Translations under genes and position numbers: made by a program
Origin: Synaphobranchus kaupii
Lineage: Eukaryota > Chordata > Actinopteri > Anguilliformes > Synaphobranchidae
Assembly: GCA_029718625.1 (NCBI GenBank)
Contig: CM056389.1
Location: 18,767,521 to 18,831,520 of the forward strand
Direction: 5' to 3'
DNA length: 64,000 nt
In this document: piece by piece, positions 54,901 to 57,900 of the stretch
Layout of the letters: the number at the start of each line of letters is the position of its first letter
Position numbering within the stretch: position 1 is the stretch's first letter
Notes under the pieces: model-generated
Told to the model about the DNA's origin: nothing
What the model saw: only the letters and a program-made list of their open reading frames with translations
Database searches by the model: none

Positions 54901-57900
54901 TGTGTGTGTATGTACGTATGTGTGTCTGCGTGTACATGTGCACCGAGGAGCACATGAAGCTAACCCAGAGTGAACCCCCCTCTCACACAAGGAGAGATCG
55001 TGAGAGATGTTGAAAGTTGATTTTGAGCGTGAAATTGCGACATAACCTTTGCATATTCTAGTGTAGTTCAGAGAAATTTTGAGAGTTGATTTTGAGTGTG
55101 AAACTGAGACAGACCTTTGCATATTCCTGTGTAGTTGAGTTTATTTTGAGTGTTAAATTTGACACTGACCTTTGCGTATTCCTGAGTAGTTGAGTTGATT
55201 TTGAGTGTTAAATTTGACACTGACCTTTGCGTATTCCTGCGTAGTTGAGTGTTTATTTTGAGTGTTAAATTTGACAGACTGACCTTTGCGTATTCCTGCG
55301 TAGTTGAGTGTTTATTTTGAGTGTTAAATTTGACACTGACCTTTGCGTATTCCAGCATAGTTGAGTGTTTATTTTGAGTGTTAAATTTGACAGACTGACC
55401 TTTGCGTATTCCTGCGTAGTTGAGTGTTTATTTTGAGTGTTAAATTTGACAGACTGACCTTTGCGTATTCCTGCGTAGTTGAGTGTTTATTTTGAGTGTT
55501 AAATTTGACACTGACTTTTGCGTATTCCGGCATAGTTGAGTGTTTATTTTGAGTGTTAAATTTGACAGACTGACCTTTGCGTATTCCTGCGTAGTTGAGT
55601 GTTTATTTTGAGTGTTATATTTGTCAGACTGACCTTTGCGTATTCCTGCGTAGTTGAGTGTTTATTTTGAGTGTTAAATTTGACAGACTGACCTTTGCGT
55701 ATTCCTGCGTAGTTGAGTGTTTATTTTGAGTGTTATATTTGTCAGACTGACCTTTGCGTATTCCTGCGTAGAGTGTTTATTTTGAGTGTTAAATTTGACA
55801 GACTGACCTTTGCGTATTCCTGCGTAGTTGAGTGTTTATTTTGAGTGTTAAATTTGACAGACTGACCTTTGCGTATTCCTGCGTAGTTGTGTTTATTTTG
55901 AGTGTTAAATTTGTCAGACTGACCTTTGCGTATTCTGCGTAGTTGAGTGTTTATTTTGAGTGTTATATTTGTCAGACTGACCTTTGCGTATTCCTGCGTA
56001 GTTGAGTGTTTATTTTGAGTGTTATATTTGTCAGACTGACCTTTGCGTATTCCGGCAGTTGAGTGTTTATTTTGAGTGTTAAATTTGTCAGACTGACCTT
56101 TGCGTATTCCTGCGTAGTTGAGTGTTTATTTTGAGTGTTAAATTTGTCAGACTGACCTTTGCGTATTCCTGCGTAGTTGAGTGTTTATTTTGAGTGTTAA
56201 ATTTGTCAGACTGACCTTTGCGTATTCCTGCGTAGTTGAGTGTTTATTTTGAGTGTTATATTTGTCAGACTGACCTTTGCGTATTCCTGCGTAGTTGAGT
56301 GTTTATTTTGAGTGATATATTTGTCAGACTGACCTTTGCGTATTCCTGCGTAGTTGAGTGTTTATTTTGAGTGATATATTTGTCAGACTGACCTTTGCGT
56401 ATTCCCGCGTAGTTACTGCTCAGGCCACTCCTCTTCTTGCGATGGCGGTAAAGCCACACGCTGAACACCATCAGGACCACCCAGCAGGTGGCGCCGATGC
56501 CCGCTATGAAGGCCGGCTGCTTCACCACGTCCGAAATCTGCTGGGACAGGGTGTCCTCTGGGCCCTTCCAGCCCTCCATAACCCGCCCTGCTGTGTCTGA
56601 GGAAGAGGAGGGAGAGGAAGAGGACGGTCAAGCCTGGGGGGCTACATGGAGGAGAGAGAGAGAGAGAGAGAGAAAGTGTGTGTGTGTGCATACATGTGTT
56701 TTTCATGTTTGTGTGTGCTTGATGTTGCATTTGAATGTGCATACATGCATGTTTGTGATTATTCTGTATGCCTGAATGTGTGTGTGTGTGTGCGTGCGTG
56801 CGTGCGTGCAAATTCCTCTGTGTGTGTGTGTGTGTGTGTGTGTGTGTGTGTGTGTGTGTGTGTGTGTGTGAAACATTGAGAAGGGCATGTGCGATTATTG
56901 AAGGTGACATGCAGTACATCATTATAAATAAGAGGAACAGTGCTATGAAAACAGATTAAAAGCAATGTTTTGTTAGATATTGATTGTGACAGTGATTTAG
57001 TTTAGAAGGGAAGAGTGGTAAACACATTAATAACCCAGCATAGCAACAGCAGAAGAGCTTGCTGAGTTATGAAACCCAGCCCAGCGCAGACACCACGGCA
57101 CTGTAATTATTTCTGATTACTCATTTAATGACTGCCATTGAGAGACCAAAGAAAACAAGCTTACACTTGTAATGGAGGTCACGTATAGACAGATAAACAC
57201 CCACACATCTCAACACTGATATCAACTACACACTACACATCTCAACACTGATATCAACTACACACTACACATCTCAACAGATATCACATCTCAACACTGA
57301 TATCAACTACACACTACACATCTCAACAGATATCACATCTCAACGCTGATATCAACTACACACTACACATCTCAACAGATATCACATCTCAACACTGATA
57401 TCAACTACACACTACACATCTCAACAGATATCACATCTCAACACTGATATCAACTACACACTACACATCTCAACAGATATCACATCTCAACACTGATATC
57501 AACTACACACTACACATCTCAACAGATATCACATCTCAACACTGATATCAACTACACACTACACATCTCAACAGATGTCACATCTCAACACTGATATCAA
57601 CTACACACTACACATCTCAACAGATATCACATCTCAACACTGATATCAACTACACACTACACATCTCAACAGATATCACATCTCAACGCTGATATCAACT
57701 ACACACTACACATCTCAACAGATATCACATCTCAACACTGATATCAACTACACACTACACATCTCAACAGATATCACATCTCAACGCTGATATCAACTAC
57801 ACACTACACATCTCAACAGATATCACATCTCAACACTGATATCAACTACACACTACACATCTCAACAGATATCACATCTTAACACTGATATCAACTACAC

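Follow-up and report, generated by a model that had tools for sequence, protein, structure and literature searches.

Minisatellites made of 5' splice junctions at robo genes of Synaphobranchus kaupii

A robo1-type gene of Synaphobranchus kaupii carries, directly behind its transmembrane (TM) exon, a long row of copies of that exon's own 5' splice junction. How could such a row arise, and how could a gene keep it? The window, the whole 64,000-nucleotide stretch that was analysed, is C14:18767521-18831520 of a 1.503 Gb genome. The features that bear on the question are given here in window positions, with a slash for the exon-intron boundary.

62025..62524, no strand: assembly gap of 500 N, upstream of the robo1 exons
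58338..58510, minus strand: exon for the second half of FN3-3, same gene as the TM exon, with one frame break
57236..58145, no strand assigned: minisatellite of 49 bp x 18.7 in the intron that separates the FN3 exon from the TM exon, on inspection not built from exon sequence
56393..56596, minus strand: TM exon of the robo1-type gene, ending in NYAGIRK plus G, true donor AAAG/GTCAGT
55047..56392, minus strand: donor-junction minisatellite of 23 copies, each with 22 nt of exon end, the donor and about 37 nt of intron
50345..50371, minus strand: 27-nt exon VPSFTFTPT, the next exon found downstream of the TM exon
47932..47974, minus strand: exon with VAYQRGG, downstream of the 27-nt exon
46845..47001, minus strand: TYS exon, ending in NLTTYSRP plus G, donor CAG/GTAAGT, two internal frame breaks
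46668..46871, minus strand: second donor-junction minisatellite, 46 bp x 4.5, with 26-27 nt of the TYS exon end and GTAAGT or GTGAGT

By its FN3 and TM sequence the gene is closest to Robo1. The best PDB match of the FN3 piece encoded upstream is human Robo1 (E 8.1e-20), ahead of Robo2 and Robo3, and the TM segment and tail gave tblastn matches with a human ROBO1 sequence, those of the tail running in order to about 33821. The NYAGIRK motif is presumably CC0, a label taken from the initial annotation. The 27-nt exon was also considered as the NOVA-regulated Robo microexon e6b and ruled out, e6b being extracellular according to an excerpt of its description (PMC6687390).

Behind the TM exon, TRF reported a period of 59 with 23.0 copies at 55079-56414, and on the minus strand the true donor after 56393 is followed by 23 more sites down to 55047. 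This agrees with the initial annotation, which had described a minisatellite of exon end plus 5' splice site with about 23 decoys; the exact 59-bp spacing that it gave for the first donors holds near the exon, in the first five steps, but overall in 14/23 (range 55-68). The 9-mer AAG/GTCAGT of the true donor is kept in 20/23 decoys, the three deviating ones reading AAA/GTCAGT, AAG/GTCTGT and AAG/GTTATG. The exon-derived part of the unit is identical at 21/22 nt, and its lone difference (GCG or GCA) is synonymous. The four copies farthest from the TM exon are among the most diverged, with 7, 7, 23 and 19 differences from the consensus, and the other 20 units, true junction included, have 0-8 differences without a clear trend along the array. 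With head-to-tail units within roughly 10-100 bp the array qualifies as a minisatellite or VNTR, and its copy number excludes a chance origin. Like the TYS array (26-27 exon nt), it holds exon sequence (22 nt) and intron sequence at a real boundary. By eye, AACT is seen where the unit begins in the exon and once more in the intron beyond the last copy, which hints weakly at microhomology seeding. The paralogous robo1 TM junction on C3 is single, without copies.

Use of the decoys would have consequences for the reading frame. Past the true TM donor the frame is open for 125 nt, one fewer than the 126 nt first counted. Translation bore out the earlier statements that an extension of +59 shifts the frame and that a stop lies within +177; extensions of +59 and +118 are shifted and still open, and +177 and every longer extension run through a stop. 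None of the TM decoys keeps a usable frame, and a receptor with a tail would come from none. As the decoys all destroy the tail, persistence of the array implies either little decoy use or no constraint on the C14 copy. Were TM decoys used, the transcript would more probably be degraded by NMD than give a stable receptor without a tail, and the tail-less decoy receptors put forward in the initial annotation are thus unsupported, as is its splice-site sink: 23 U1 sites per transcript are negligible against cellular U1. In the TYS array, on which the initial annotation was silent, splicing at the first extra donor would lengthen the exon by 45 nt and keep the frame. The copies also do not look like recursive (ratchet) splice sites, since they have GTCAGT instead of GTRAGT and lack a pyrimidine tract in 7 copies. 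By a crude count, the 20 nt before the unit AG contain 8-10 pyrimidines in these 7/23 copies checked, compared with 13-20 at four real acceptors, so that a new intron is not expected from them. Judged from these motifs, recursive splicing or new introns seem unlikely.

We then ask whether the TM array stands alone. Further robo loci were recognised as a second robo1-type gene and robo2 on C3 and robo3-type genes on C3 and C10, all paralog names (robo1, robo2, robo3-type) being read from sequence and not from annotation. Arrays span 6/44 resolved robo donors (5 in the strict count) and 0/58 exon starts, where the starts are merged HSP starts and approximate rather than exact acceptors (Fisher p 0.005; strict 0.013). 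Without the array first reported, the strict comparison is 4/43 against 0/58 (p 0.03). The 44 donors are those kept after exclusion of exon HSPs without a clear donor (42 checked for GT, 2 added), and arrays with entropy under 1.5 or overlapping a better array were removed (91 raw, 44 left). From the resulting density, 44 arrays in 183 kb, 0.32 spanned donors are expected with a 30-nt edge window and 0.63 with 60 nt. Self-BLAST with the 96 ends of 48 exon HSPs placed copies at 9 3' ends and 0/48 5' ends, several of the nine being single, short or intronic matches, and in four more stretches copies were again restricted to 3' ends.

The six spanned donors sit on two contigs, C14 and C3: the C14 robo1 TM and TYS donors, the robo2 TM, FN3 and Ig donors, and a robo3-type TM donor. 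Exon sequence inside the array amounts to 22 nt at robo1 TM, 26-27 at TYS, 26 at robo2 Ig, about 12 at robo3-type TM and about 7 at robo2 TM. The robo2 FN3 array includes 1 exon nt only, with no recognisable exon-like part, and was dropped from the strict count as a weak case. An example at robo2:

L017:7546-8905: TM donor of robo2 and, behind it, a 47-bp x 29 array in which 24 matched GT sites score at least 8

All donor scores come from a simple frequency matrix. In the robo2 TM array the decoys have a median of 10.8, against 11.2 for the true donor. On the same scale the C14 TM donor is weak (8.4 of 12.55), and the TYS (12.6) and robo2 Ig (10.9) donors are strong; both robo2 Ig decoys add multiples of three. 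Among the five strict arrays, the intron parts resemble each other no more than shuffles do (p 0.095-0.78). An ancestral array shared by the three TM junctions was considered and ruled out, the intron parts being mutually unrelated. TM donors carry arrays in 3/5 cases, compared with 3/39 of the other robo donors (Fisher p 0.013), and without the array first reported in 2/4 compared with 3/39 (p 0.06; strict 0.037); the TM donors of the second robo1 gene and of the C10 robo3-type gene are not spanned.

The reading that we favour, and hold to be rather more probable than its denial, is that minisatellites were seeded across 5' junctions and tolerated through use of the first donor. The array would be seeded when a short tandem duplication crosses an exon-intron junction and takes in the exon end, the GT donor and the intron start, and it would thereafter grow by ordinary minisatellite slippage or unequal exchange. 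The spliceosome would stay with the exon-adjacent first donor and the mRNA would be unchanged; continued use of this donor would be why the array is tolerated. A duplication on the acceptor side would put an altered copy first, change the exon start and be lost by selection. The same process may have repeated independently at several robo donors in a minisatellite-rich fish genome. It is from the arrays and their junction content, the recurrence in robo genes, the five unrelated intron parts, the robo donor/acceptor asymmetry and the frame effects that we infer a seeding event, first-donor use and a selective filter. Several observations count against seeding and tolerance. The junction content is uneven, the exon-like part ranging from 22-27 nt down to none recognisable; 0/31 kinase exon ends are spanned by an array and the pooled asymmetry is weaker; further robo 3' ends gave just single weak or intronic copies. 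Also, the excess of robo arrays over that expected from density is not accounted for by tolerance alone, and a mutational bias is possible.

Such a bias is the core of the strongest alternative, a hotspot, by which transcribed 5' exon-intron junctions would promote minisatellite birth beyond tolerance through R-loops, paused polymerase or the donor sequence itself. We give it about one chance in three. It would fit the six spanned robo donors where 0.32 were expected, and it would fit the kinase exons, where a minisatellite begins 6-86 nt past the donor in 6/31 exon ends, against 0.75 expected within 100 nt. These 31 ends were hand-picked from 118 matches with donors set by eye, two of them (L072, L073) GC-type by look. 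The kinase-donor minisatellites lie in L045/L061, L047/L062, L046, L051, L069 and L070, and array starts look frequent at the 5' ends of introns. With robo and kinase donors pooled, 6/75 donors and 0/58 starts are spanned (p 0.035), the 58 starts coming from robo exons alone and the kinase exons supplying donors only; the strict pooled comparison without the reported array, 4/74 against 0/58, is not significant (p 0.13).

Genome-wide motif counts point in the same direction with reservations. Triples of MAGGTRAGT number 4911 against 56,874 single sites (8.6%), those of the near-donor MAGCTRAGT 1185 against 54,630 (2.2%), those of the reversed donor motif 1997 against 88,437 (2.3%) and those of an acceptor-like motif 1724 against 164,578 (1.0%). 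The donor motif is thus about four times likelier than its one-base variant to stand in rows of three, and the near-donor motif as a direct control still favours donors. However, the triples are overlapping matches, dozens of which are possible per array, so that the counts are over-dispersed, and they are not tied to exons. CAGG-rich minisatellite cores could account for part of the excess, and the exon sample is small and mostly of one gene family. Reversed motifs are a poor yardstick. The excess of the donor motif over its reversed control was rejected as proof of a junction origin, as the near-donor motif (triples 1185 to 57, singles 54,630 to 20,475) and the acceptor-like motif (triples 1724 to 205, singles 164,578 to 96,014) exceed their own reverses more. 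Among the matches listed, donor triples form at least 8 loci in 16.5 Mb and reversed ones at least 13 in 155.6 Mb (p 0.0005), a comparison of unrepresentative stretches that carries little weight. What the counts show is a genome full of multi-donor minisatellites, and they do not reveal the birthplace of these. That 5' splice junctions are preferred minisatellite birthplaces in this lineage, with the three TM-donor arrays reflecting a shared hotspot or the use of extra donors, is a tentative proposal, more doubtful than not.

A second alternative, marginally behind the hotspot in our estimate and likewise doubtful, is relaxed constraint, with the C14 robo1 gene a truncated, decaying duplicate on which arrays pile up without selection against them. 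Its ectodomain is one point in favour. For Ig4 to the first half of FN3-3, a query scoring all 55 candidates gave no match on C14, and a second one, with 129/800 candidates scored, listed weaker robo matches and nothing on C14; such queries do recover exons of other robo genes. The 50 kb upstream of the window contain no Robo1 match, with the 500-N gap in between, and the Ig1-3 queries covered the fetched stretches. A full ectodomain exon set on C14 therefore seems to be missing, though a gap is possible. In addition, four frame breaks, each +1, fall in 3/6 exons checked (38985-47001 and 58338-58510), and the two C3 robo1 exons checked are free of them. On the other hand, dN is far below dS in comparison with the C3 copy (TM 0.050 and 0.68 over 53 codons; FN3 0.078 and 0.81 over 45 codons), which shows long purifying selection, and the listed donors and four acceptors seen in the C14 copy are intact. 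Uniform +1 breaks near an N gap may moreover be assembly errors, and arrays also span robo2 and robo3-type donors, whose matches showed no obvious frame break on an unsystematic look. The C14 copy is thus doubtful, and it is possible that it is a truncated copy, a case of recent decay or a product of assembly errors.

A functional multi-donor element, in which the copies recruit U1 snRNP cooperatively for a weak donor or the decoys make truncated or extended Robo isoforms, is improbable. The weak TM donor, the 9-mer kept in most decoys, the concentration of arrays at robo TM donors, the in-frame first decoy of the TYS array and the multiples of three at robo2 Ig would all suit it. Nevertheless, the TM array has no frame-preserving decoy, the TYS and robo2 Ig donors were amplified although they are strong, the array is absent from the paralogous C3 robo1, and a young array would retain its donors without selection anyway. 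An assembly artefact, for which the 500-N gap and possible indel errors in the region might speak, is very improbable because the copies differ individually and unrelated arrays lie at other donors on C14 and C3.

Seeding and tolerance can be set beside systems already described. The initial annotation knew of no described case of such amplification, which needs qualifying, as boundary repeats that alter splicing are described for human segmentally duplicated genes: internal tandem repeats of about 30 bp x 4 at exon-intron boundaries (excerpt of PMC2812944). Those are likewise minisatellites at exon-intron boundaries in duplicated genes and, as far as the excerpt goes, differ from one recent paralog to another and are able to form new introns. 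In the fish, by contrast, the unit is the donor junction itself, with as many as 23 to about 29 copies; none of the sampled exon starts has an array, and recurrence is seen at robo donors both homologous and non-homologous. Introns are known to be gained by tandem genomic duplication of AGGT (excerpt of PMC3443670), which has in common with our case the tandem duplication of a segment with AG/GT, whereas the fish case duplicates an existing junction into its own intron. TERT VNTR6-1, a 38-bp intronic minisatellite shown to change splicing, is comparable in copy number; it is tied to a G-quadruplex that lies about 3.5 kb before exon 7, and splice-site copies are not described in the excerpt (PMC11830802). 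In intron 1 of Sparus aurata MSTN-2 a repeated block also occupies the intron 5' end of a teleost gene, but it measures about 150 bp with 1-2 copies, and the part of the source at hand does not say whether it takes in the exon end (PMC3045353). The portion seen of a paper on the repeat-rich killifish genome held nothing helpful for this question (PMC2688266), and open-licence literature, judged from listings, showed no description of a donor junction repeated in tandem. The fish case departs from the known systems in that nearly identical donors stand in a row, arrays recur from paralog to paralog, and the asymmetry favours the donor side.

Behind a single exon, each strict array sets between 3 and about 25 donors whose strengths are equal or almost equal. 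With strengths so nearly equal, position and not strength must decide which donor is used, and the arrays are a natural setting in which to test the spliceosome's choice between identical 5' splice sites. They bear on whether donor-side duplications are silent and acceptor-side ones not, and may also show where minisatellites are born.

Further arrays lie around the gene. At 60333-61446 lies a 36-bp x 31 minisatellite whose consensus holds a strong donor-like CAG/GTAAGA on the plus strand (score 10.9, equalled by 0/200 shuffles), with no exon identified beside it. A 44-bp array at 62525-64000 abuts the N gap and continues into L019, several kb past the window; the minus strand of its window consensus holds GTGGTGAGT. 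On the low-coordinate side of the C14 robo1-type gene, a 179-bp satellite-like array occupies 3-5213 of the window and extends through L024-L026, and it is followed by a 37-bp array that fills much of L026 and nearly all of L027-L028.
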